A model generated the notes under the pieces. That model was not told where the DNA came from. It searched no databases and saw only the letters and a program-made list of their open reading frames with translations. 50,228 nucleotides of DNA from a virus, in the IMG/VR virus record IMGVR_UViG_3300050821_004815, positions 1 through 50,228 of that record. One strand, given 5' to 3'. Below are positions 3,054 through 48,985 of the stretch, one piece after another (the stretch's first letter is position 1; every line of letters starts with the position of its first letter). Both the position numbers and the translations under genes were made by a program.

Positions 3054-3060
3054 TTCAACT

Positions 3061-3368
3061 TAGCTGGGCAAAGCCTGGCGAAGCACGGCGACGCGAGGCC
3101 CGGCGGCGCGTGGCGGGGCAAGGTACGGCCCGGCATGGCGGCGCGAAGCCTCGGCGTGGCTCTGCCTGGCTCGGCAACGCATCGCGCGGCCGGGCAAGGC
3201 TTGGCGTGGCATAGCATGAGATGGCGAAGCACGGCGTGGCAACGCGCGGCATGGCGCAGCAAGGCGAGGGCGGGGCAGGGCGCGGCAGAGCGGAACTTGG
3301 CGATGCTGTGCCTGGCTTTGCTAGGCGTGGCCAGGCGTGGCCAGGCACGGCTGGGCAAGGCAAGGATT
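3061..3368 (+). repeat. Pentanucleotide array A5 (longest)
   Basis: About 60 units over ~305 bp with the GC dinucleotide every 5 bases and only a few phase slips. It includes GGCGTGGCCA repeated in tandem near 3325-3345. It ends GGCTG GGCAA GGCAA GGATT in phase. ORFs through it translate to low-complexity Ala/Pro/Arg or Gly/Ala/Arg 5-residue repeats and are not genes. A hairpin follows at 3378-3410. Confidence 0.92.
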
Positions 3369-3377
3369 TATATTAAA

Positions 3378-3424
3378 GGGCCCCCTGCAACGCCAAGCAG
3401 CAGGAGGCCCAATGGTCTGTTTTA
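3378..3424 (+). terminator. Hairpin after array A5, possible terminator
   Basis: Arms 3378-3388 and 3400-3410 pair at 10 of 11 positions (GGGCCCCCTGC with GCAGGAGGCCC) around an 11-base loop. A weak T-rich stretch (TGTTTTA) follows. It would end transcription from the 2166-3053 genes before the helicase gene. The remaining ~100 bases to 3528 contain a TTGACA at 3488 without a good -10. Confidence 0.5.
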
Positions 3425-3527
3425 GCCCAGGTGCGTAGGCCAACATTACATGTAGTGGAGTTATCCAACGTTGTCCACATGAGCGGTTTGACAGGACGCT
3501 GAATCGGGCAGAAATCTCGACCCACAG

Positions 3528-6041
3528 GTGCGCCAAATGCCGTGGGAATCAACCCGAATACAGCGATATTTAACCGTCGATTTCATCACCAAGAGGAGAT
3601 TAAATGCCCCGGCAGTCTGGCTAGGCCCGCAAAGCAGAGCGCCAAGCGCCGACGACGCGATCCGGCCGCCAGACGGGCTCAAGACCGACCCTAACGAATG
3701 GGCGAACGAGGATGACGAGCGCAATCTCGCCGTCCGCCTGGTCAACGGGCATATCGAGCTGCAGATCCAAGCGCCCGACGAAATCTGGCTCGGATTCTTA
3801 TTTAAGGCTTTCCGAGAGCTTCGAATCGACGCCCGCGCCGCCTTCGGAAGTCAATTCATCACCTCCATCATCCTGAGAATTGACGATCCTGAGACCATCG
3901 ACCGCTGGCGCGAGCTCTGGCCGCGCGGCCACACCGACAAGAACGGCCGCTGGGTCGAGACCAAATTCGCCTATTCGTCCATGCCGACCGCACGCTCGAA
4001 GGCGATCTGGCACGATTCGAAGCCCCTTCCCGGCTCGATCTTCGCCGAGAAGCTCGTCGTCTGGCGCCCGTGGGGCAAGCCGGCGGCCGAGACGGCCGAG
4101 ACCGGGCTGGACGATCTCGAAGTTAGAGAACTCGCCGCGACAAATATGAAATCTATTTGTCGCGCCATCGCTTTCGCCACTTTAGCCTATTGGATCAACG
4201 ACTATCTCGACGGGCTTGAAGAATGGGACGAGAGCCTAACGCGGGTGATGGGCGGCTGGGTCGCTCGACTGATCCGCGAAGGCCAGGACATCAACGCGCG
4301 CGGCAAGAGCCTCGAAGGGGTGTGCTGGTCGCCTATCGAGGATTCCCCGACCGCCGGTGAGCTGCTCAACTTTCTTGGCGCGATGGGCGCAAGCAAGGAT
4401 CTTGGCGTCGCCTTCCTGCACGCCGAAGCGGCGTTAGAGCGCAGCTCGACCGCGCCCGTCCCGGGTTGGGGCGCTATCGAGACGCTATTCGGCCCACAGG
4501 CCAAGGTCGGCATCCGGCGAGCCTTCCGCGCCGGTCTCGACATCGATGCGGTCGAGCGGATGAGCGAGCTCTACATTTACGACCGGACGATGGATAACTT
4601 TCTCGATTGCGATGAGCTGCTCAAAGGGCTGCATCACGAACACAAGGTTGACGAGCTGGAGCGGCGGCACAAAAACGAGATCATCTTCGTCGCCGGCAAG
4701 CCGCAGAACCCGTTTAAGCTCTACGCCGGCTCCTCGCTGCGCACCGATGTCCAGCACCGGGAGTTTCGCCCTGGCTACGAGCCTGGGTCCATCCTGCGCT
4801 ACTCCCCGGTCTACGGGCTGCTAAACGGCGAGGATAAGCATCCGGACGAATACCGGGTTTTGAATGTTTTTCCCGGCTTCGTGATCAAGCCGGTCGCCAC
4901 TATCGATGCGGCGATCATGGGTCGAGCGGTGACCATGCTCGACCGAATGCTCGGTCTCCTGACCCAGGACAAGGACGAGCAGATCAAGTGGCTTAAGCAG
5001 TTCGTCGCCTTTATCGCCCAGCGCCCCGAGATCAAGCCGCAAGTCTGCCCGATCATCGTCGGCGGGCAGGGGATCGGCAAAAGTCTGTTCGGTGACAATT
5101 TGATGAAGGCCTTGTTCGGGATCATGGCCGGCGGCGCCGCGGCCGACGCGCTAACCGAAAACAAGTTCGTCATCACTCCGTTTTTGAGCAAATTGATCAC
5201 CTTCATCGACGAGGTGCGGCTCGAATCGGTCGGGGCGATCAACACCATCAAGAAACTGGTGCGCGCCGACTACGTCTCGGGCCAGGTCAAGTTCGGGCAT
5301 CAGAGAGACTACTATGTCCCGACTCGGCTCCTGATCGCCTCCAACTCGCCCGACATCGGGCTTTCGCCGGTCGACGCCGCCGACCGGGCGTTTTTCTTCA
5401 TCATGTCGTGGACCGGCGAAAACAAGCGGATGACCGACCGCGAATTCCTCGATTGGTCAAACAGTCTCAAGCCGTTCTACACCGAATTCGTCCAGGCGTT
5501 GGAGGCGGTTGTATTCAAGCAGCACCTCATGCGCTATTTCATGGACTTCGAGGTCACCCGCGGCGAACTCGAAAACCTGCAATATTCCTCGCGCAACGAC
5601 GAGAACATCGTACGCTCGACCATGTCGAAGGCGCGCGAGGTGGCGCGAGCTATCGTCGCCGACGCACGGGTGCTCAACGACAAGGATCTGATGGCATGGT
5701 TCAATTCGACCAATCTGCGCGACGCCATCTTTCGCGTCGACGGCCGGCGCAGCAAGGTCGAGGCGGGCCAGGTGATGATGGAATTCGAGCGCGCCGGGGT
5801 GATCGAAGTGGTGCGCGGCGACATCCGCAAGTTTACCTGGGGTTACGGCAAGACGGTGCAGTTGATGAGCGAGGCGCACAGTTTGCCAATCACGCCGAAC
5901 TGGGACTATAAACCAGGCGACTTTGATGCGAACGACATCCGGTCGACCGAAGGGGCGCCACAGTGGCGGGGCTACAACAAAAACCAACGGCAAGACCGCG
6001 GACCCTACGATCCCGATGCTATGGGCCCGGACTCTTACTGA
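3528..6041 (+). CDS. Replicative helicase, P4/DUF5906-like SF3 type
   Basis: Up to 837 aa. The C-terminal half has a Walker A GGQGIGKS (about residues 512-519), a Walker B-like ITFIDEVR (~565), and LLIASNSPDIGLSPVDAADR as sensor 1 with an arginine-finger region. These are typical of phage/plasmid primase-helicases (D5/VirE/DUF5906). The N-terminal ~300 residues show no clear primase motif. It probably unwinds phage DNA at replication. The start is uncertain: GTG 3528 and ATG 3537 lack a good site, while a strong AGAGGAG precedes ATG 3604, which opens only a 6-codon ORF in another frame. A small upstream ORF or a sequence error is possible. Confidence 0.85.
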   Translation: MRQMPWESTRIQRYLTVDFITKRRLNAPAVWLGPQSRAPSADDAIRPPDGLKTDPNEWANEDDERNLAVRLVNGHIELQIQAPDEIWLGFLFKAFRELRIDARAAFGSQFITSIILRIDDPETIDRWRELWPRGHTDKNGRWVETKFAYSSMPTARSKAIWHDSKPLPGSIFAEKLVVWRPWGKPAAETAETGLDDLEVRELAATNMKSICRAIAFATLAYWINDYLDGLEEWDESLTRVMGGWVARLIREGQDINARGKSLEGVCWSPIEDSPTAGELLNFLGAMGASKDLGVAFLHAEAALERSSTAPVPGWGAIETLFGPQAKVGIRRAFRAGLDIDAVERMSELYIYDRTMDNFLDCDELLKGLHHEHKVDELERRHKNEIIFVAGKPQNPFKLYAGSSLRTDVQHREFRPGYEPGSILRYSPVYGLLNGEDKHPDEYRVLNVFPGFVIKPVATIDAAIMGRAVTMLDRMLGLLTQDKDEQIKWLKQFVAFIAQRPEIKPQVCPIIVGGQGIGKSLFGDNLMKALFGIMAGGAAADALTENKFVITPFLSKLITFIDEVRLESVGAINTIKKLVRADYVSGQVKFGHQRDYYVPTRLLIASNSPDIGLSPVDAADRAFFFIMSWTGENKRMTDREFLDWSNSLKPFYTEFVQALEAVVFKQHLMRYFMDFEVTRGELENLQYSSRNDENIVRSTMSKAREVARAIVADARVLNDKDLMAWFNSTNLRDAIFRVDGRRSKVEAGQVMMEFERAGVIEVVRGDIRKFTWGYGKTVQLMSEAHSLPITPNWDYKPGDFDANDIRSTEGAPQWRGYNKNQRQDRGPYDPDAMGPDSY

Positions 6042-6280
6042 TCCTCGCCACGCCCGCCGACGCCTGTCACATCTATCGCGTCTGGCATTATCCCAAACCG
6101 CAGAAGTGCTTCACCGCGCTGGCTCCGCTTCCAACGCGTTCATTCCGACATGAGACGTTCCGCGAACGAATCGATATTCCGCTGCCGGCGCTCGAATGGG
6201 CTGAATGTCCACCCGGCGAAGAACGATTGATGGCAATTGCAAAGTTGCGCGCTTTGGAGGATGTTCCGCCAAGCCGATAG
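5963..6280 (+). CDS. Putative secreted small protein with signal peptide
   Basis: 105 aa from GTG 5963, overlapping the 3' end of the helicase gene. A hydrophobic stretch GPGLLLILATPADA is followed by CHIYRVWHYPKPQKC, which looks like a Sec signal with AxA-type cleavage before a Cys pair. The C-terminal half has IPLPALEWAECPPGEERLMAI. Similar short exported proteins occur in Rhizobiales-like phages as far as I recall. The start is uncertain because no good ribosome site is seen. Function unknown. Confidence 0.5.
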   Translation: MAGLQQKPTARPRTLRSRCYGPGLLLILATPADACHIYRVWHYPKPQKCFTALAPLPTRSFRHETFRERIDIPLPALEWAECPPGEERLMAIAKLRALEDVPPSR

Positions 6281-13480: not shown

Positions 13481-13560
13481 CTTGGCGAGGCCCGGCGTGG
13501 CCAAGCATGGCGCGGCGCGGTCTAGCGAGGCTTGGCGCTGCAATGCGCTGCAATGCGAGG
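13481..13560 (+). repeat. Pentanucleotide array A6
   Basis: Sixteen units in perfect 5-base phase, ending TGCAA TGCGA GGATT in phase. The last part has a 10-bp tandem (CTGCAATGCG twice). It is followed by TAATTACGTGAGTCAATTA, sharing the A2 3' junction. It separates two genes that are otherwise closely packed. Confidence 0.92.
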
Positions 13561-13570
13561 ATTTAATTAC

Positions 13571-14974
13571 GTGAGTCAATTAGACCCAGTTCAACTTAGC
13601 GCACTCGACTTCTCTCGCGATAAGCGCGGCGTCGGCTGGTTCATGGAGCAGGGGCTCGGCAAGACCCTGTGCGCGCTGGCTGAGTTCTCCTGGTACGAGA
13701 AGCTGGGCGAAGCCGACCGGATGGTCGTGGTGTGCCCGAACACCTTCAAAAAAGGGTGGTCGGACGAGATCGAAAAGCACGGCTTCTCGTTCGCCGAGCA
13801 CATCTTCCAATCAAGCAAAAAAGAGAAGGCCGGGATCTTCGTCAACGGCGTTCATAACCGTCCACCCGTTTTCATTCTCAATTACGAAGCGCTACGAATG
13901 CCGGCGGTGCTCAAGGCGATGACCACGTGGGCCTCGCGCGGCAAGACCTATTTCGCCATTGACGAGTCGATCCAGATCAAGAGCCATAGGAGTCAACAAA
14001 CCAAAGCGGCCCAGCGCCTCGCCGCGGTGTGCAAATGGGTGCGCTTGCTGAGCGGGCGCCCGCAAACCCAAGGTCCGCACGATTTGTGGGGGCAATTGCG
14101 CGCCATCGGGCTGTTCCCCGACACCAGCTTCCTCGCCTTCAGGAATACCTTCTGTGAAATGGGCGGTTACATGATGAAGGAGGTGGTCGGTGTGCGCCAA
14201 CCCGAAATGCTCGCTAGGATCATGGAACCGGTGGTCTTCCAGGCTAAAAAGAAAGACTGGCTACCGGATCTGCCGCGCAAGGACGCGACCATTCGCGATT
14301 ATGCGATGTCGACCGCGCAACTCGCTCAATACAACCAGATGGAGCAGCAGTTCCTGCTCTATCTAGAACACAACGTCGTCACGGTGGACGTCGCTATAGC
14401 TAAATACGAGAAGCTCGCCCAGATCCAGACGGGCTTCATATACGACGAGGCGGGTGATGTTCATGAGCTCGTAAAGCCTCTCGAAAACCCCCGGCTCAAG
14501 CTCTTGCATCAGCTTCTGGACGAGGAGGTCGAGGGCAAGGTCTGCGTCGTCTACCGTCATCGTCCCATCCTTAACATGCTGGTCAAAGCTTTGGCCGAAT
14601 ACGACCCGGCCTGGATCATGGGGCGGATGAAGCCCGAGGACGTCGAGGAGCAGAAGCGGCGATTTAACGACGACCCAAGCTGCCGGATCATCCTGTTGCA
14701 GGCCGAAGCCTCGAAATACGGGCATACTTTGTTGGCTGGCCCAGCGGAAGAAGACAGGTGCCGCACCATGATCTTCTTCGAGAATTCTTATAGCGCCGAC
14801 ACGCGAGACCAGATCGAGGATCGTATCCACCGCCGCGGCCAGACCGGCGAATACGTCTCGTATATCGACCTCTCGGGCTCGGACCTCGACCGCCGGATCG
14901 TCAAAGCCCTGCAACGAAAGGATGCGCTATATCGTTCTGTCTTTAAAAACCTTAGAGTCGCCGAACCAGCTTGA
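13571..14974 (+). CDS. SNF2-family helicase/ATPase
   Basis: 467 aa from GTG 13571, with AGGA at the array end upstream; the longer frame starting in the array is rejected. Motif I is MEQGLGKT (residues ~25-32), motif II AIDESIQIK (D-E-S in place of DEAH), motif III LLSGRPQTQ. Motif VI is QIEDRIHRRGQTG near the C-terminus. This is a compact phage SWI2/SNF2 protein that translocates on dsDNA, probably in replication or recombination with the VRR-NUC-like nuclease. The first ~12 codons are AT-rich next to the array. Confidence 0.88.
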   Translation: MSQLDPVQLSALDFSRDKRGVGWFMEQGLGKTLCALAEFSWYEKLGEADRMVVVCPNTFKKGWSDEIEKHGFSFAEHIFQSSKKEKAGIFVNGVHNRPPVFILNYEALRMPAVLKAMTTWASRGKTYFAIDESIQIKSHRSQQTKAAQRLAAVCKWVRLLSGRPQTQGPHDLWGQLRAIGLFPDTSFLAFRNTFCEMGGYMMKEVVGVRQPEMLARIMEPVVFQAKKKDWLPDLPRKDATIRDYAMSTAQLAQYNQMEQQFLLYLEHNVVTVDVAIAKYEKLAQIQTGFIYDEAGDVHELVKPLENPRLKLLHQLLDEEVEGKVCVVYRHRPILNMLVKALAEYDPAWIMGRMKPEDVEEQKRRFNDDPSCRIILLQAEASKYGHTLLAGPAEEDRCRTMIFFENSYSADTRDQIEDRIHRRGQTGEYVSYIDLSGSDLDRRIVKALQRKDALYRSVFKNLRVAEPA

Positions 14975-14988
14975 TGGGGAATTACAAA

Positions 14989-15714
14989 ATGCGCAAACTT
15001 CTGCTTACGGCCGCGCTTCTCGCCGCTTTCGGGGCCAATCCCGCTAAAGCGACGCTGCAGCTTTCAATCAGCGACGGGACGACCACGTTTTCGTGCAAAG
15101 ACGGCCAGCTTGGCTGCGATCAGAGCGGCGGGGCGAACAATCTCCTGGTGGTCAACACTACGGTGGGAGGATTCTTTGTCGAGATCGCGCTCACCCAGTC
15201 GACGTTCGGCGGGCATGACATTCTTCAGCTCTCAACCTCGGACATCGTTAACAACGGCCCGCATGAGGGCGTTCTGAGCTTCTTCGCTGGCGACACGAAT
15301 TTCACCCCGCCCGTGAAGAGCATCGAGGAGAGCGCCTCGCTGACCTTCAACCGCAACATCGGCGCGGCGGATTCGACGCTTGAGTTCTTTGCCGATCCGG
15401 CCAACGGGCAGGGCGCCAATCCGCTGAACACGCCCGGAACCTTGCTCGACAGCGTCAGCGGTCACGCGCTGACCGATCCGGATTCGTTTTCGGGCACCAA
15501 GACCCAGGCGTTCATCTCTGGTTCGCCGTTCTCGATGACGGAGGCGGCGCATCTCGATCTGATTTCTGGCGGCTCGATCACCGGCTTTAATCAGTCGATG
15601 ACCTCGTCGGCGGTGCCCGAGGCTTCCACTTGGGTGATGTTGGGACTAGGATTCGGGCTTCTCGGACTCGTCGGACGCCGACGTGTTGGCTTGAGGCCCG
15701 TTATAGCCCCCTAA
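14989..15714 (+). CDS. PEP-CTERM sorting-signal protein
   Basis: 241 aa from ATG 14989 (GGGGA 8 bases upstream). It has a signal peptide (RKLLLTAALLAAFGANPAKA), a beta-rich Ser/Thr/Asn-rich body, and near the C-terminus SAVPEASTW, a hydrophobic helix and GRRR. That order, VPE-x-S/T, membrane helix, Arg cluster, is the PEP-CTERM signal used by exosortase systems. Nine residues follow the Arg cluster, which is unusual. Such proteins are host exopolysaccharide or surface proteins, so a phage copy is likely a host-derived passenger gene. Surface or exclusion roles are inference. Confidence 0.8.
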   Translation: MRKLLLTAALLAAFGANPAKATLQLSISDGTTTFSCKDGQLGCDQSGGANNLLVVNTTVGGFFVEIALTQSTFGGHDILQLSTSDIVNNGPHEGVLSFFAGDTNFTPPVKSIEESASLTFNRNIGAADSTLEFFADPANGQGANPLNTPGTLLDSVSGHALTDPDSFSGTKTQAFISGSPFSMTEAAHLDLISGGSITGFNQSMTSSAVPEASTWVMLGLGFGLLGLVGRRRVGLRPVIAP

Positions 15715-15721
15715 ACGACGC

Positions 15722-15791
15722 CAAAGGCTCCCTTTGAGCCGTGTCAGGTCAACGCCAGAAGGGGCGGGTTATGGCTAGACCCCGCCCCTTC
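15722..15791 (+). terminator. Two hairpins downstream of the PEP-CTERM gene
   Basis: First, CAAAGG/CCTTTG (15722-15736). Second, a perfect 11-bp stem GAAGGGGCGGG / CCCGCCCCTTC (15758-15768 with 15781-15791, 12-base loop). No T-run follows, so a Rho-independent terminator is only possible. It would act near the end of the plus-strand block. Confidence 0.4.
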
Positions 15792-20579: not shown

Positions 20580-21951
20580 CGAGCGCCCCTAAAATCGGAG
20601 CGCCGGGAGCGCGCAGTTTGCTTTGTAAAATGCCCTTCGAAGGCGGGGTGGCGTCGGCCGACAGGGCTCCTCCGGGCTGGGGGCCTTGTTTGAGGATTCC
20701 GATTGCCTTCGCCACCCCTTGCGAGGATGGGGGAGTAGCCCCCGCGCCCAGCGCATTCAGCATGTCCATATGCACTGCCATGTGCCCCTTCGAGGTCACC
20801 TGGCGCACGGCGTGCGGCGCGATCTTCTTCACGTCCTCGGCCATCGGGCCGACGATCTTCGGGTAGTGCTTCGGGTCGCCCTTGTAGCGGTAGGCGTACA
20901 TGTCGATGCCGGTCGGGTGCTTGCCGATCTTGACGATGTCGGTCTTGAGGCGGCGATCCGAGAGGCCGAGCATCGATGTGAGACCGGCCATCGCGCTGGT
21001 GCCGCCGGCGCCCGAGGAGAACAGCCCGCCGAGCGTCTGCATGCCGCCGAGCGCCGCCGCCATCGGGTTCGACTGGGTCTGGGTGGTCTGCGAGGCCGAG
21101 GTGCCCGAGGTCGCGGTGTCGTACGGCGTCATGCCTAAAGACGATTCCATGATGCCGAGCTGTTGCTGCGGATACTGGAAGGCCTGTTGGAACTTGGCCA
21201 TCTGGGCGTTGACGTCGTTCTGCGCCTGTTGCTGCTCGAAGCCGCCAGCCGAGGTCAACATCCCGTAATTGGCGATGTTGTTTTGCATCTGCTGCGTGCC
21301 GAGCGTGCCGAGACCGGAAGCGGCCTGGTTGACCAGCCCCTCCTGACTAAGTCCCGCCGCTTGGTTAAGCTGTTGGGCCTGTAAATTGCGGCTAATGTCG
21401 CCGGTCGCTGCGGCTTGCGCCTGGCCGAAGTTGGCTTGGTTGAGCTGGCCTGCCATCTGGGCCATGCCTAACGCGCCTTGAGCCTGTGTGACCCCTTGTT
21501 GAATCGCTTGGCGTGAGCCGCCGAACGCGCCCGCCGATGCCGCGGCGTTCTGTTGCTGGTTCTGTGACAACCCCAGGTTTTGTTGCATGATCGGCAAAGT
21601 TGCATTGATCACGCTGGACGTGAATGGGTTCATGTACGGGCTAAGATTAGTATTAGCAATCTGTGCCGGATTAACTTGCTGCGGCGTCTGGCTCAAGTTG
21701 TTAAGGTACCCAGCCTGAGAAGCGTTCTGCGCGTCCTGGCCGACGTTCCCCGAATTCGCCGCTAAATTCCAGGCTTGTTGGCTCTGTGGAGCAACATCCG
21801 CCACCATCTGACCTTGATATTGCTGGAGGGGCTGCGAGGCGACTTGCTGTGCCAAACCATAATTCTGCTGGCCAGCGTTCTGCACCCATTGCGGAATTTC
21901 GTTGGTGCTCTCGGAACTACCTTGTTGAGTTGTTGTACTGCTCCCTCCCAT
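20572..21951 (-). CDS. Gln/Ala-rich virion protein with S74 intramolecular chaperone domain
   Basis: 459 aa. Residues 1-320 are Gln/Asn/Ala/Ser-rich helical sequence with repeated LNQAxxxSQ-like phrases. At about 330, LSDRRLKTDIVKIG begins a peptidase-S74-like domain (DMYAYRYKGDP, VGPMAEDVKKIAP). S74 domains usually end tail fibres and self-cleave after trimer folding. Here ~65 residues follow it, and the gene sits among ejection proteins, so it may assemble a trimeric neck or internal structure. Confidence 0.65.
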   Translation of the reverse strand: MGGSSTTTQQGSSESTNEIPQWVQNAGQQNYGLAQQVASQPLQQYQGQMVADVAPQSQQAWNLAANSGNVGQDAQNASQAGYLNNLSQTPQQVNPAQIANTNLSPYMNPFTSSVINATLPIMQQNLGLSQNQQQNAAASAGAFGGSRQAIQQGVTQAQGALGMAQMAGQLNQANFGQAQAAATGDISRNLQAQQLNQAAGLSQEGLVNQAASGLGTLGTQQMQNNIANYGMLTSAGGFEQQQAQNDVNAQMAKFQQAFQYPQQQLGIMESSLGMTPYDTATSGTSASQTTQTQSNPMAAALGGMQTLGGLFSSGAGGTSAMAGLTSMLGLSDRRLKTDIVKIGKHPTGIDMYAYRYKGDPKHYPKIVGPMAEDVKKIAPHAVRQVTSKGHMAVHMDMLNALGAGATPPSSQGVAKAIGILKQGPQPGGALSADATPPSKGILQSKLRAPGAPILGALGG

Positions 21952-21974
21952 GTGTTAAACTCCTCTTACAGCGC

Positions 21975-22054
21975 GAGGCTCAGCACGGCACGGCACGGCA
22001 CGGCCAAGCCAGGCGGCGCTCGGCTCGGCGAAGCTCGGCGATGCAAGGCATGGC
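21975..22054 (+). repeat. Pentanucleotide array A8
   Basis: About 16 units, including GGCAC four times in a row, top-strand G-rich between two minus-strand genes. It ends GGCAT GGCAA GGG and merges into a hairpin at 22055-22079. Confidence 0.88.
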
Positions 22055-22079
22055 AAGGGAACCATCCTAGAGTTCCTTT
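22055..22079 (-). terminator. Hairpin at the 3' end of the 22067-22426 gene
   Basis: AAGGGAAC and GTTCCTTT pair over 8 bp (one G-U) with a 9-base loop. The minus-strand TAG stop lies in the loop and the outer arm touches array A8. Confidence 0.4.
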
Positions 22080-31446: not shown

Positions 31447-31628
31447 ACGTACCCCATCAGCCACAAAATCAGAATGACGATCAAGATGACGCCAATCACG
31501 CCAATGCCCCGATTGCCGAAACCATAGCCGGGTTGCCAAGGCGCCCCGGTGTAGAAGTGCGGCCCGACCCCACCGAGCAGGACAAGGATCAAGATCACGA
31601 CGAGAACGATGCCGAGCGGACTGCTCAT
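31443..31628 (-). CDS. DUF3309-like two-TM protein, possible holin/pinholin
   Basis: 61 aa. Two hydrophobic helices (GIVLVVILILVLLGG and GVIGVILIVILILWLMGY) flank a short loop GPHFYTGAPWQPGYGFG. This is the layout of DUF3309 proteins, which are common in alphaproteobacteria. It is coupled by ATGA to both neighbours and sits two genes after the endolysin, so it could be a holin-type pore protein or a host-derived membrane protein. Confidence 0.65.
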   Translation of the reverse strand: MSSPLGIVLVVILILVLLGGVGPHFYTGAPWQPGYGFGNRGIGVIGVILIVILILWLMGYV

Positions 31629-31831
31629 TTGGGCGTCTCCCCGTTGCCGTTAGTGCGCCCCTTGCTGAACCAATACCCCATGATGATCGCGCTGCCACTG
31701 GGAATGGTGATCAACAATCGATCAATGATCTTCTGATTGTGGATGATCTCCATGCCGCACAGGACGAGAACGATCATCGAACCAACTGCCCAGATCACGG
31801 TGACGATGAGATCTGGGCGCAAGTTTTTCAT
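31625..31831 (-). CDS. Putative holin
   Basis: 68 aa. Two hydrophobic segments (IVTVIWAVGSMIVLVLCG and LLITIPSGSAIIMGYWF) with a short charged linker and a polar tail KGRTNGNGETPK. Size, topology and position directly after the endolysin gene (ATGA overlap) fit a class II holin. No sequence family is recognised. Confidence 0.65.
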   Translation of the reverse strand: MKNLRPDLIVTVIWAVGSMIVLVLCGMEIIHNQKIIDRLLITIPSGSAIIMGYWFSKGRTNGNGETPK

Positions 31832-32493
31832 GACGGTTCCGGCATCGCGGGCCCAGCGGGCAAGCCAGGAAGAGCGGCCTCCACCATCGGAACCGCCGCC
31901 GGAACTTGCTTCAAGGCCACTTTAAACTTGTGGTAATAACCAGCGATGGTGCTCGCTTTATCGGTGCCGTTAACAATCCGGCGCGCATTGACCGGGTCTT
32001 CGATATTCTTTGATTTCGACAAATATTTCGGCAGGCCGACACCAGTGAACCAGCCGTGGATCATGCCGTCGTAGGAGATCAGCGCCGAGGTTTGCGGGTG
32101 CAGCATCAGGTGTGGCTCAGGATAAATGTTGGCGTGGAGGCCATAACGATCCTTGAGGAATTGCTGGCCGTTTTTGTAGTTCGTGTCCCAGGTCAGCTGG
32201 ACGTGGCCGCGGCCATAATAGGCCACATTGTGCGGCGCGACCGGCTTGCCGTAAGACTTGCCCGCCCCCTTGCCGTATTCCTCGATGGGCTGCATGGTGT
32301 ACGCGGTTTCGTGGTAAAATGTCGCCAGCGCGTAGGCGAGCCACATCGTGCCGTCGTTCGGATTATTGGCCTCGAAATGCGTCTCCCACACTTCGAGCAG
32401 ATAATTCATCCCATCGACCTGAGATTGAGTCAGGTTGCCGTAAAATAGGTCTTTGCGAACTGCATCGAAGAAATGCTTGCGGTCGTAGGGCAT
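31828..32493 (-). CDS. Endolysin, glycoside hydrolase family 19
   Basis: 221 aa. LATFYHETAYTMQPIEEYG carries the GH19 catalytic Glu in H-E-T (E62), and AYYGRGHVQLTWDTNYKNG is the family signature. It hydrolyses peptidoglycan beta-1,4 links. The C-terminal 35 residues are a Pro/Ala-rich extension. There is no signal peptide, so it needs a holin, consistent with the two small membrane proteins downstream in the same coupled unit. Confidence 0.88.
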   Translation of the reverse strand: MPYDRKHFFDAVRKDLFYGNLTQSQVDGMNYLLEVWETHFEANNPNDGTMWLAYALATFYHETAYTMQPIEEYGKGAGKSYGKPVAPHNVAYYGRGHVQLTWDTNYKNGQQFLKDRYGLHANIYPEPHLMLHPQTSALISYDGMIHGWFTGVGLPKYLSKSKNIEDPVNARRIVNGTDKASTIAGYYHKFKVALKQVPAAVPMVEAALPGLPAGPAMPEPS

Positions 32494-38745: not shown

Positions 38746-39078
38746 CTAGCGCAATCCGTGCTTTCTTGACCAGAGGGCTTGTTTGGCCCGGTCGCGCTCC
38801 CACAACCACATGGGCGGCGCGACCGGGCCGATAAAGTCGGGAGCGGAGCGCCAAAGCGCTTCGAGCTCGGCTTGAGTTAACCGTTCAGCGTTTCGGCTGC
38901 GCGGTCGGGGGCAAACCTTGGCCCGGGCGGGGTGGGGCCGATCCTGGCGGCCGGTTGCCAGGGTGAGGCTGACCGGCGACTGGTGGCCGAGGCAAGGGCT
39001 GGCCTGCGGTTGGAGGTCGCTGACCGGGCTGCGGCGGCTGCGGCAGACCTTGGTCGGGGTGCTCTTCGCCAACGCCAT
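38746..39078 (-). CDS. Small protein in a frame overlapping the Pro-rich gene; start uncertain
   Basis: The last ~47 codons (LTQAELEALWRSAPDFIGPV, then MWLWERDRAKQALWSRK) look like real coding sequence. No ATG/GTG/TTG starts it after the neighbour's stop at 38885. The nearest in-frame ATG (39078) would overlap the neighbour by ~190 bases. A +1 frameshift at the neighbour's end (CCG AAA CGC TGA) or a sequence indel would instead fuse the two. Confidence 0.35.
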   Translation of the reverse strand: MALAKSTPTKVCRSRRSPVSDLQPQASPCLGHQSPVSLTLATGRQDRPHPARAKVCPRPRSRNAERLTQAELEALWRSAPDFIGPVAPPMWLWERDRAKQALWSRKHGLR

Positions 39079-39559
39079 AATCCGGATCGACCGGCCCGCC
39101 TTCAGGCACGTCGACCACGATGTAGCGCATCGTCTTATGGCCAGTCGAACTGATGATCGCCGCCAGCACAATCGCCTTGCCTTCGGGAACACCCGGGATC
39201 TCTAGCGGCGGCCACACCGTGCCAGGCGGCGGATCAGTCGGCGGCAGCGGCTGGCCAGCGACCGGAGGCAGACCGACATCAGGGTGCTCGGGATCAAGCG
39301 GCCAGACGGGAAGCTGACCAGCATCTGTGCCCTCGTCAACGCCATAGTCGGGATCGGTCGGACGGCCAGGGCGCGCCGGCAAATGGCCGGGATGGCCGGG
39401 AGCGCCAGGAAAACCAGGGAGGCCATGCGAGGGATGCTCGCCGCCGCCGACGCCCCAGCTGGGATCGACAGGTCGGCCGGGTCGGCCGCCAGGGAGTCCT
39501 TGATCGGGATGGGCGCCCTGATCAACCGGTTGGATCCAAGCCATAAATCCTTGTGGCAT
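38885..39559 (-). CDS. Pro/Gly-rich repeat protein
   Basis: 224 aa, GGAGG before ATG. Low complexity with three or four units like GRPVDPSWGVGGGEHPSHGLP, varied as RPTDPDYGVDEGTDAGQLP and GPVDPDYGVGEEHPDQGLP. In the middle sits a short ordered segment, AIVLAAIISSTGHKTMRYIV. It looks like an extended structural or decoration protein. It lies between terminase and portal genes. Confidence 0.6.
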   Translation of the reverse strand: MPQGFMAWIQPVDQGAHPDQGLPGGRPGRPVDPSWGVGGGEHPSHGLPGFPGAPGHPGHLPARPGRPTDPDYGVDEGTDAGQLPVWPLDPEHPDVGLPPVAGQPLPPTDPPPGTVWPPLEIPGVPEGKAIVLAAIISSTGHKTMRYIVVDVPEGGPVDPDYGVGEEHPDQGLPQPPQPGQRPPTAGQPLPRPPVAGQPHPGNRPPGSAPPRPGQGLPPTAQPKR

Positions 39560-46184: not shown

Positions 46185-46642
46185 GCGACGTCTATCCGCC
46201 TGTCGTTCAGCGCCCTGCACTGCTGAAATTGGCCGAAGCTCTCCTGAGCCGGGACAATGCCTTGCGCCGCGACGAATGCAGTGATTGGCGCATCAATGGT
46301 AAACGCGGACACATTTACGCAATCCCAGGAACGCTTGATCGGCCCCATACGCCTGGATTTCAGATTTACATCGGATGCGAGTCGGTTAGGGAATGGTCGT
46401 ACGCCAAAAAGGCGCTCGCCCCCTTTACCGATCCGACCAATGACGGAGACGAGGAGGGAATGCTGTTTCTCGACCACCTCCCCTCGCCCAATGAAGCAGA
46501 GATTATCCGTCGATATGTTGGGATTGCCAAAAAGCGAGAGGTGAGTCCCGAGGAGCTTGACCGTCTACGTCGAATGGGAACCCGCTATAAAAGCTCCGAT
46601 CAGACGAAACGACCGGCCTCCGAGCTTCCGGAGGCAGAATGA
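46181..46642 (+). CDS. Hypothetical protein (153 aa)
   Basis: From GTG 46181 (GTGA overlap). N-terminal helix LLKLAEALLSRDNALRRDEC, a central alpha/beta part (GHIYAIPGTLDRPHTPGFQI, MLFLDHLPSPNEAEIIRRYV) and a disordered C-terminus RYKSSDQTKRPASELPEAE. The last 19 residues recur at the window start. The duplicated module begins inside this gene at 46582. Confidence 0.62.
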   Translation: MSDVYPPVVQRPALLKLAEALLSRDNALRRDECSDWRINGKRGHIYAIPGTLDRPHTPGFQIYIGCESVREWSYAKKALAPFTDPTNDGDEEGMLFLDHLPSPNEAEIIRRYVGIAKKREVSPEELDRLRRMGTRYKSSDQTKRPASELPEAE

Positions 46643-46767
46643 CCCTCAACCAGATCCTCGCCCAATTGGTGCGCGCCGCCGAATGGCAGCTGATGCGCAG
46701 ATCGCCGACCTGGGTGCTGCTCGGAATTGTCATGGGCGTCATCGCGCTCGCCCTGCTAAAGCACTGA
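46639..46767 (+). CDS. Small single-pass membrane protein, copy 2
   Basis: 42 aa, MTLNQILAQLVRAAEWQLMR, with the same single hydrophobic helix as the copy at 58-186 and four substitutions. ATG overlaps the previous TGA (ATGA). Confidence 0.7.
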   Translation: MTLNQILAQLVRAAEWQLMRRSPTWVLLGIVMGVIALALLKH

Positions 46768-46778
46768 GGGACACAAAC

Positions 46779-47144
46779 TTGGACGAACCGATGAGTATCG
46801 AGTTGGATAAAGCCCTAATGGCCCGTTCCCGGCGCAAGGTTAGGGCGTTGACCTTTGCCGACCGGGTGGCGATCAATCTGCTCTACGACAATCGGAAGGG
46901 CGTCAGCGGGCCCGTCTTGGCCCGCGTATTCGGGGTGTCGAAGAACACCATTTATTACAAATCGTTAACGGGTAAGGCTGACTCCTATCCGACTACCGGC
47001 GAGCAAGTGAACGAGGTCGAGGGGGAGATCGCCCGACTCGGGCGCGACGAGGCCAAGGCGATCTACCTGACCGACGAGATCCTCACCCGGGTCAACACCG
47101 AGCTGCAGCGCACTGCACGGCGCAAGGAACGGAGGCGGCGTTGA
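46779..47144 (+). CDS. Helix-turn-helix DNA-binding protein, copy 2
   Basis: 121 aa from TTG 46779 with GAGGGA 7 bases upstream. About 95% identical to the 198-563 protein. Changes include GEIARLG for EEIDRLG and a few neutral ones, so both copies appear functional. Its stop overlaps the next start as TTGA, where copy 1 has array A1. Confidence 0.7.
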   Translation: MDEPMSIELDKALMARSRRKVRALTFADRVAINLLYDNRKGVSGPVLARVFGVSKNTIYYKSLTGKADSYPTTGEQVNEVEGEIARLGRDEAKAIYLTDEILTRVNTELQRTARRKERRRR

Positions 47145-47383
47145 CCGAGGAGCAGATCGAGGCGCGCAACCAAGCCATCAAAGCAGCCTGGGACGATCCT
47201 TTGCGCCGCGCGCTGATGTCCAGGCTGAAACGGGAGCAACGCTATGCCAAGCATGCCCAAAGGGGCCCGGATGGCCGATATCGAAGATCTGACCCGCATG
47301 GTGGTCTCGGTCCAGGCGGAAGCGGCCAGCTACGGCAAACTGACGCTGTGGACGATCTACGACAAGCCGAAGGACCACCCTGA
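47141..47383 (+). CDS. Small basic protein overlapping the next gene, copy 2
   Basis: 80 aa from TTG 47141. MTEEQIEARNQAIKAAWDDP, then LRRALMSRLKREQRYAKHAQ, conserved with 658-900 at protein level despite strongly different, GC-rich DNA. The C-terminal part overlaps 47244-47543 in another frame in both copies. Confidence 0.55.
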   Translation: MTEEQIEARNQAIKAAWDDPLRRALMSRLKREQRYAKHAQRGPDGRYRRSDPHGGLGPGGSGQLRQTDAVDDLRQAEGPP

Positions 47384-47543
47384 CGAGATCGTCGCCCGCC
47401 GGCATGAGGTTCCCGGCGGCCCGACCGAAACCCTGATGGGCGGCGATCTCGGGCTTTTGCGCGAGGTGTTCCGCGGCGCCGGTTTGGTGTGCGTCGGCCG
47501 GCAGGAAGGCGACGATGTCAAGATTTTAGAAACCTGGATCTGA
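47244..47543 (+). CDS. Conserved hypothetical protein, copy 2
   Basis: 99 aa, near-identical to 761-1060 (ADIEDLTRMVVSVQAEAASY, GKLTLWTIYDKPKDHPDEIV). GGGAG lies 7 bases before the ATG. The conserved double start M-P-x-M-P in both copies supports it. Confidence 0.75.
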   Translation: MPSMPKGARMADIEDLTRMVVSVQAEAASYGKLTLWTIYDKPKDHPDEIVARRHEVPGGPTETLMGGDLGLLREVFRGAGLVCVGRQEGDDVKILETWI

Positions 47544-47546
47544 CTC

Positions 47547-47957
47547 GTGGGAGGCAAGTGGTCTGAGGATTTCATCCAAGTCACCGACATTGAATGGAAC
47601 GGGACACCTTGCTGGCGATGGTTAGGAGCGCACGACGGCGAAAGACCACAGTACAATCACATCTACGTCTATCGCATTCTTTACGAACGTGAGCGTGGTT
47701 TGATCCCAGATGGGCACGTTGCTCATCACAACTGTGAGCATGAATGGTGCATCAATCCTTGGCACGTTGAGCCAATGACACAAAGCGAGCATTTTAAAAA
47801 GCACGCCCCTGGAGCTTACCAAAGTCTCAGAACCCACTGCCCTCGCGGGCACCCCTATGATGAGGCGAACACTTACATCACCACGACAAATAAACGCTTT
47901 TGTCGAGCGTGTGGTCGAATAGCTACCGCGGCCTATCTGAAGAGGAGGAAGCCATGA
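47547..47957 (+). CDS. HNH homing-type endonuclease
   Basis: 136 aa from GTG 47547. WSEDFIQVTDIEWNGTPCWR, YRILYERERGLIPDGHVAHH, then NCEHEWCINPWHVEPMTQ is an HNH_3-type core (H-H ... N-P-x-H). A C-terminal zinc-like site is THCPRGHPYDEANT with RFCRACGR. It is inserted between two module genes that are adjacent in copy 1, as free-standing homing endonucleases often are. It likely cuts phage DNA and drives its own spread. Confidence 0.85.
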   Translation: MGGKWSEDFIQVTDIEWNGTPCWRWLGAHDGERPQYNHIYVYRILYERERGLIPDGHVAHHNCEHEWCINPWHVEPMTQSEHFKKHAPGAYQSLRTHCPRGHPYDEANTYITTTNKRFCRACGRIATAAYLKRRKP

Positions 47958-48196
47958 ACGCGATTGTCGAACTGGTTCAACCGATCACCAAGGCTCGCAA
48001 GCCGCTCGAAGTAAAAAACGCCGAGCTAAGGGCTGAGATTCGCGAGCTTAAGCGTGACCTGAAGGCGGCGCGCCGGCACGCGATAGAGCTGTTGGCGATC
48101 ATGCGGCCAGCCTTTCAAGAGGCGACGCACTGCCGTCCTGTATGCACCTGCACCCCGACACGCGCCGATTTTCTCAGAGCGATTGCGCGTGACTGA
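47954..48196 (+). CDS. Coiled-coil protein with CxC tail, copy 2
   Basis: 80 aa from ATG 47954 (GAGGAAGCC upstream, ATGA overlap with the HNH gene). KNAELRAEIRELKRDLKAAR as in copy 1; the middle differs and is shorter (AIMRPAFQEATHCRPVCTCT). Coiled-coil dimer likely; role unknown. Confidence 0.72.
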   Translation: MNAIVELVQPITKARKPLEVKNAELRAEIRELKRDLKAARRHAIELLAIMRPAFQEATHCRPVCTCTPTRADFLRAIARD

Positions 48197-48512
48197 ACCG
48201 CGCGCCTGCAACCAATGCGGGCGATGTTGCACCAATTCGGGCTACATGCAGACCCTGTCGGCCGACTGGGGAGACATCGAACGCTGGCGCAAGGAAAAAC
48301 GCCACGATATTTTGCGCTTCGCTGTTATTATCGTTGAAGGCTACGACGCCGATCTCTGGGTTGACGAGAACGGTGTCGAGCGTGCGCGCTGTCCATTCGT
48401 CCGTAAGAACCCTAATTCACCCAAACACCGCTGCACGATCTACGAAACGCGCCCCGGTGTATGCCGCCGCTATGAGCCGTGGGCGTCGGATGCGGTATGT
48501 GTGGAAATATGA
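48189..48512 (+). CDS. CxxCxxCC (YkgJ-type) zinc/iron-chelatin family protein
   Basis: 107 aa from GTG 48189, overlapping the previous stop. ACNQCGRCCTNSG holds the CxxCxxCC signature; later RARCPFVRKN, HRCTIYETRPGVCRRYEPW give the conserved C-x-I-Y-x-x-R-P-x-x-C of the YkgJ family. These cluster-like proteins occur in many bacteria with unknown function. It is absent from copy 1, so it was gained or lost after duplication. ATGA coupling with the next gene. Confidence 0.82.
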   Translation: MTEPRACNQCGRCCTNSGYMQTLSADWGDIERWRKEKRHDILRFAVIIVEGYDADLWVDENGVERARCPFVRKNPNSPKHRCTIYETRPGVCRRYEPWASDAVCVEI

Positions 48513-48985
48513 CGCCCCGCGAAGCCGGCCAAATTGAGCTCGAAGAGCCGGACTGGCGCGAACGCTTCGAGGAGCACGCCAATCGCTGGTCGAGGCTACC
48601 GCCGTACCTTGCCTGGGATAACGCGTTTGAAGCCGTCATGCGCGAGTGGCGGCTCTTCCATTTCGCCTGGATAGAGAATGGGGGGAAGGCCAAACGCCGC
48701 CCAGCGGGCGCGACCGAAGCCATGATCGCCCTGGCGCAGCTCAAGATCTTTCCCGCTCGCTTTCTGCACAAAGATGTGCCGCGCCAGGATGCGAGCGGCT
48801 ATCAGGCAGACGATCATATGTGGCTCTCCATCAATCGCGAGCAGTGGCGGATTCTCGGCGTAGAGGACAAAATGCTGTGTCTCGAAAGACGATTCGAGGA
48901 CAAGCCCGAGACGATGCAGATCGATTTGGCGAAAGCCAAGTGGGAGAAATATTGCGTGGCCGCCGCCCAGGCACTCGGTTATTGA
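48509..48985 (+). CDS. Conserved hypothetical protein, copy 2
   Basis: 158 aa from ATG 48509. TPREAGQIELEEPDWRERFE, FEAVMREWRLFHFAWIENGG, IFPARFLHKDVPRQDASGYQ, RILGVEDKMLCLERRFEDKP. Matches 1327-1845 throughout but without that copy's C-terminal extension. Unknown function. Confidence 0.7.
   Translation: MTPREAGQIELEEPDWRERFEEHANRWSRLPPYLAWDNAFEAVMREWRLFHFAWIENGGKAKRRPAGATEAMIALAQLKIFPARFLHKDVPRQDASGYQADDHMWLSINREQWRILGVEDKMLCLERRFEDKPETMQIDLAKAKWEKYCVAAAQALGY

Follow-up and report, generated by a model that had tools for sequence, protein, structure and literature searches.

A PEP-CTERM gene at the end of a phage replication operon

The DNA that we analysed, the whole stretch of 50,228 nucleotides (hereafter 'the window'), is a virus record with genes for a terminase, an SU10-type portal and a major head protein, as well as primase-like and helicase genes. 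Neither a tyrosine integrase nor an exosortase was found in it. The last gene of its rightward replication operon is an intact open reading frame of 241 codons, the ATG of which follows the stop codon of the SNF2-helicase gene by 14 nt (Table 1). An inverted repeat lies 3' of the gene; because it has no T-run, its role as a terminator is unproven. The lysis cassette, with an endolysin gene (31828-32493, minus strand) and a holin-like ORF (31625-31831), is located 16 kb away.

Table 1. Features of the PEP-CTERM locus, in window positions
Feature	Coordinates	Strand	Basis
SNF2-type helicase gene immediately 5' of the CDS; serves as anchor of the slot	13532..14974	+	PF00176, phrog_62
GGGG as putative ribosome-binding site, 9 nt upstream of the ATG	14976..14979	+	Read directly
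CDS, phage PEP-CTERM protein with core type A, 241 aa	14989..15714	+	ORF call, PF07589, homologues
Predicted Sec type-I signal peptide, residues 1-21, AKA|TLQ, without lipobox	14989..15051	+	Sequence
Exchangeable, predicted all-beta core, residues 22-208, core type A	15052..15612	+	AlphaFold2 model, alignment, swap versus core B in L008
PEP-CTERM tail, residues 209-241: VPEASTW motif, predicted helix 212-234, RRR cluster, 9-residue extension	15613..15711	+	PF07589, model
Perfect 11-bp inverted repeat (hairpin; arms 15758-15768 and 15781-15791) separating the rightward operon from the convergent structural block	15758..15791	.	Sequence; no T-run

Read directly from the sequence, the N-terminus of the encoded protein, MRKLLLTAALLAAFGANPAKA, has the features of a Sec type-I signal, including an AxA site, and lacks a lipobox. 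The C-terminal tail, VPEASTWVMLGLGFGLLGLVGRRRVGLRPVIAP, aligned end to end with the Pfam family PF07589 (27.1 bits against a cut-off of 20.7, E 4e-6), and a six-frame search of the whole record with this model returned a single match (E 1.6e-8); the same kind of search gave no match over the cut-off in any of 14 control genomes. While the tail passes the Pfam model, it stays below the NCBIfam domain cut-offs (13.4 versus 16 for TIGR02595 and 23.5 versus 35 for the PEPxxWA-CTERM model NF035944), which are reached by several homologues that occupy the same position in related phages. The signal peptide and PEP-CTERM tail proposed in a sequence-only reading of this DNA are thus borne out, the tail by the Pfam model and not by the two NCBIfam ones, and we regard the predicted export signal and sorting tag of the window protein as well supported. 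The nine residues beyond the Arg cluster, which had been called unusual, proved ordinary: this extension has a median of 7 residues (range 4-15) and reaches at least nine in 39 of 149 phage tails. By a simple rule, 160 of 161 distinct phage ORFs with PEP-type tails start with a signal-like N-terminus, and the lipobox pattern, absent from the window protein, matches two of the 161. Within the core A alignment, Cys36 and Cys43 are invariant.

Several other features of the window were noted in passing. Its ends (1-1602 and 46582-48784) contain a diverged repeat block, with 300 nt at 97% identity followed by stretches at 86%, 87% and 80%, the copies being about 46.5-47.2 kb apart; this could be either a paralogous gene block or a circular genome assembled across strain variants. 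A small ORF (5963-6280, plus strand) with a CHIYRVWHYPKPQKC motif resembles, by eye, short exported proteins (CHKYSHWYYPYPQRC) encoded near the PEP-CTERM genes of lineage 4, and possibly specifies a second secreted phage protein. Short low-complexity tracts of GGCAAGGC-like repeats lie between gene blocks at 3055-3425 and 21950-22070.

The slot downstream of the helicase gene

We searched IMG/VR with the helicase of the window and inspected the downstream region in 36 loci, three of which were too short, leaving 33 resolvable contigs with some near-duplicates among them. A PEP-CTERM gene occupies this slot in 29 of the 33, although in three of these only its start is present, the contig ending there. 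With the slot empty, L146 has a PEP-CTERM gene elsewhere in the record (L193), which at 19.6 bits is just under the cut-off, and no such gene was detected in the whole records of L142, L144 and L145. Tandem PEP-CTERM genes with different cores share the slot at L133:7119-8624 and L136:6427-7978.

The signal peptide and the tail are recognisable throughout the slot while the core families between them alternate. Core A is found in the window, L123 and L136, A-like cores in L121, L133, L134 and L135 (the A members are 42-46% identical to the L134 core), core D, the type of L004, in L148, and core B in most contigs.

Exchange of cores between phage lineages

L008, the closest relative of the window, matches it at 83% nucleotide identity at the end of the helicase gene and at 86% over the tail, and carries core B, which is unrelated to core A. 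Profile-profile comparison detected no similarity between the two cores, and for this reason their joint MAFFT alignment was set aside and is not counted as evidence of homology. In L002, an otherwise unrelated phage, the core A sequence is 83% identical to that of the window at the nucleotide level, with both flanks at background level.

Core B is present in 66 viral contigs. All complete copies are 163 residues long, without indels, at a mean amino acid identity of about 88%, and with pS of 0.50, pN of 0.09 and a median dN/dS of 0.114 the core is under strong purifying selection. As judged by shared proteome, the carriers fall into at least five lineages with differing portals and morphogenesis genes, among them an SU10-like podovirus, a weakly P22-like type, a tailed group with genes for portal_3, a tape measure and a baseplate, and others. 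The core-B tree needs 13 lineage changes where the minimum is 4, and a single clade for the lineage of the window is rejected (p-AU 0.022), the other lineages individually not being rejected. Tail identity is 67% within and 58% between lineages, as compared to 89% and 88% for the core; tails are therefore lineage-bound and cores hardly so, which argues that cores move and that tails belong to the recipient. By these comparisons, core B has evidently moved between phage lineages. The PE-xx-TW motif is retained in nearly all core-B tails, while the sequence of the helix drifts.

The sequence-only reading had likened the gene to a passenger. We reject this description because the slot is conserved and the core is under strong purifying selection; the earlier interpretation of a phage-encoded PEP-CTERM protein, in a genome without a tyrosine integrase and beside a hairpin at the end of the replication operon, otherwise stands, save for the supposedly unusual extension. 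The position of the gene at the end of this operon suggests that, in the lineage of the window, the protein is synthesised during infection. Gene position differs among the core-B lineages, some of which place it amid structural or other genes, and early expression is therefore not general.

Three further observations concern the core-B carriers. At L063:1339-1998, core B is followed by another hydrophobic tail, VVPGPVVGAGLPGVIVGCGFLVLLAMTRRKARGLVV, in place of the PEP-CTERM motif; it ends like the usual tails of its lineage, keeps a hydrophobic stretch and a basic cluster, has no match in plasmids and is possibly another sorting signal. The endolysin of the window keeps 72-90% identity across carrier lineages that are otherwise unrelated, as if these shared hosts and swapped lysis genes. 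Finally, a Pro/Gly-rich repeat protein with HPDQGLP and PVDPDYG motifs (38885-39559, minus strand), for which GenBank phages yielded no match, is common to all five core-B lineages and is often encoded near the PEP-CTERM gene.

Distribution and origin

Wider searches brought the set to 161 distinct phage ORFs with a PEP-type tail. PF07589 scored over its cut-off in 30 of 33 and 46 of 50 phage records, which had been chosen for carrying such genes, and the same architecture of signal, core and tail recurs in phages across several core families. A tyrosine integrase was found in none of the 34 records tested from the set of the window and core B, as compared to 11 of 50, with scores over the cut-off, in the wider A/D set; temperate phages therefore also use such proteins. 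Two of the carriers, G075 (L253; five PEP-CTERM hits) and G082 (L278; two), are prophage-like and have a tyrosine integrase; their IMG numbers, 2751185896 and 2698537050, resemble those of isolate genomes, and the two records could name a host. No exosortase was detected in 26 plus 39 phage records, and the tag therefore presupposes an exosortase of the host. Soil phages, including ones without a tyrosine integrase, harbour, and exchange with one another, genes for an exported protein that has a predicted surface tag, which suggests that phages use the host's own sorting enzyme to alter the surface of the infected cell. Neither the window protein nor either of two homologues matched a PADLOC model of anti-phage defence proteins. 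While PEP-CTERM proteins are a known kind, we found no report of phage-encoded ones in the open-access literature, the search extending to subscription journals and preprints in small part.

The sequence-only reading had proposed looking for homologues in phages and in exosortase-bearing hosts. Phage homologues are many, and close bacterial relatives of cores A and B were absent from pattern scans covering 84,980 species of bacteria and archaea, in which 58 stretches were matched for core A and 136 for core B, none of them a relative; as each scan used two short peptide patterns per core, it excludes close relatives only. No relative of the window protein or of core B was found among 50,697 GenBank phages, nor of the window protein among 72,556 plasmids. 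A-like and other cores have distant relatives on plasmids of the sphingomonad Polymorphobacter (25-31% identity, annotated as PEPxxWA-CTERM). The tag is bacterial, and the present core families look to have been held by phages for long, within the limits of the pattern scans. A match to PHROG 16636, 'secreted protein' (E 8e-4), was discarded, as it spans no more than the signal peptide and the first strands and is repeated by no homologue.

The nearest relatives of the portal are those of Ochrobactrum phage OH (37%) and Sinorhizobium phage phiM5 (35%), and those of the endolysin belong to Sinorhizobium and Rhizobium 16-3-type phages (45%). Both proteins point, distantly, to a host in the Hyphomicrobiales.

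Predicted fold of the cores

Core A and core B were both modelled with AlphaFold2 (pLDDT 75.5 and pTM 0.69 for A, 70.3 and 0.64 for B), and each model shows a jelly-roll beta-sandwich between the N-terminal signal helix and a C-terminal helix. The best structural match of core A in the PDB is the Bacteroides surface glycan-binding protein SGBP-B (7kwc), with a Z score of 9.0 (8.0 for core B), a weak match of 3.3 Å over 134 residues at 10% identity. Recurrent neighbours are CBM61 (2xom), CBM16 (2zew) and CBM4 modules, along with tailspike C-terminal domains, and core B also matches a streptococcal adhesin domain (Z 9.4). All of these matches are weak (TM about 0.25-0.45, Z about 9 at most), and the tool warns that such values may reflect a mere common arrangement. 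Sequence similarity of the cores to CBMs or glycan-binding proteins was not detected, the PDB sequence search being empty. We take glycan binding by the modelled cores as a lead.

Proposed role of the phage PEP-CTERM protein

The phage protein can be described as modular, with three parts open to exchange: a Sec signal peptide at the N-terminus, a beta-sandwich core that is predicted to be secreted, and a C-terminal PEP-CTERM tail. We infer that Sec would export it and that an exosortase of the host, rather than of the phage, would cut the tail, the core then being released or attached at the cell's outer surface or within the exopolysaccharide (EPS); display there is what the tag naturally suggests. 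There the core would most likely bind a surface glycan or EPS and so change adsorption, with the outcome that superinfection by competing phages is blocked or that progeny are kept off infected cells and debris. Our preferred reading, put forward tentatively, is accordingly a surface or EPS protein that is made by the phage, exported, sorted by the host exosortase, and probably blocks superinfection or readsorption. We favour such a block for two reasons: cores that are unrelated to each other alternate within a single slot, and they turn up again in co-occurring phages of unrelated descent. This pattern is expected for a trait the value of which depends on the phages and surfaces around. A bolder version, about which we are more doubtful, would have unrelated phages draw on a pool of swappable secreted domains, combine them with lineage-specific signal peptides and exosortase tags, hijack the host exosortase (a transpeptidase) and coat infected cells with glycan-binding proteins, on which it would depend whether a given phage can still adsorb, a form of surface exclusion.

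The same features would be seen in a periplasmic protein that is anchored in the membrane and never processed. In such a scheme the tail would simply be an inner-membrane anchor, and the core, retained in the periplasm, could keep the DNA of a second phage out or help in lysis; the predicted helix followed by RRR, the lack of an exosortase in the phage records and the L063 homologue, in which the hydrophobic stretch and the basic cluster outlast the PEP motif, are all consistent with it. A plain anchor, however, needs no motif, and it is PE-xx-TW that core-B tails keep while their helix drifts, so that we consider this account unlikely, if still worth weighing. We give similarly little weight to an effect on EPS or aggregation that favours the spread of progeny and is not aimed at other phages. 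EpsH occurs where PEP-CTERM does, together with exopolysaccharide genes (Haft 2006, PMC1569441), host PEP-CTERM proteins have been reported as necessary for the formation of flocs (as cited in PMC12642866), and the fold resembles that of glycan-binding proteins. The alternation of cores and their sharing by competing phages nevertheless look more like specificity between phages, or between phages and surfaces, than like a bulk role in EPS.

A lysis factor that links both membranes through an all-beta periplasmic domain and a C-terminal membrane helix is far less probable than either. Unimolecular spanins of the T1 gp11 type consist of an exported beta-rich domain and a C-terminal membrane helix. 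The phage PEP-CTERM protein shares this gross layout, and no i-spanin/o-spanin pair is apparent near the endolysin and holin-like ORF of the window; unlike these spanins, it lacks the lipobox for the outer membrane, as do nearly all of its homologues, and is encoded outside the lysis cassette, at the far-off end of the replication operon. Accidental capture of a host gene without phage function, for which the bacterial tag and the distant core homologues on Polymorphobacter plasmids might speak, is largely refuted and hardly credible given the conservation of the slot, the low dN/dS, the spread over at least five lineages and the lack of a close bacterial relative in the pattern scans.

Exosortase systems are widespread in environmental bacteria, yet most of their substrates have no known role. 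A putative exosortase substrate that is phage-encoded, conserved, exchanged and kept by purifying selection offers a small system amenable to experiment, in which the fitness context, infection, is clear. If the preferred reading is right and adsorption is blocked, it would represent a new route by which phages alter the host surface, and soil viruses would offer, in the pool of cores, domains for binding surfaces or glycans that phages have already selected.

Comparison with known systems

The jelly-roll beta-sandwich of the models resembles that of SGBP-B, CBM61 and CBM16; sequence similarity was not detected, and the match is too weak to claim membership of the cores in these families. T5 Llp and the Cor proteins of phi80 and N15 are surface superinfection-exclusion proteins that act as lipoproteins or envelope proteins. 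The phage PEP-CTERM protein is likewise a small, probably exported protein of an infecting phage, although in its case the change in adsorption is a proposal, and we know of no surface superinfection-exclusion protein that uses exosortase sorting. The closest likeness is to the bacterial substrates of the PEP-CTERM/exosortase (EpsH) system (PF07589, including NF035944), which have the same signal peptide, C-terminal PEP motif, hydrophobic helix and basic cluster, and which, as the phage proteins do, vary widely in their N-terminal parts. Unlike these substrates, the proteins described here are phage-encoded and exchanged, come with no exosortase of their own, and are encoded in phage operons rather than in isolated host operons.
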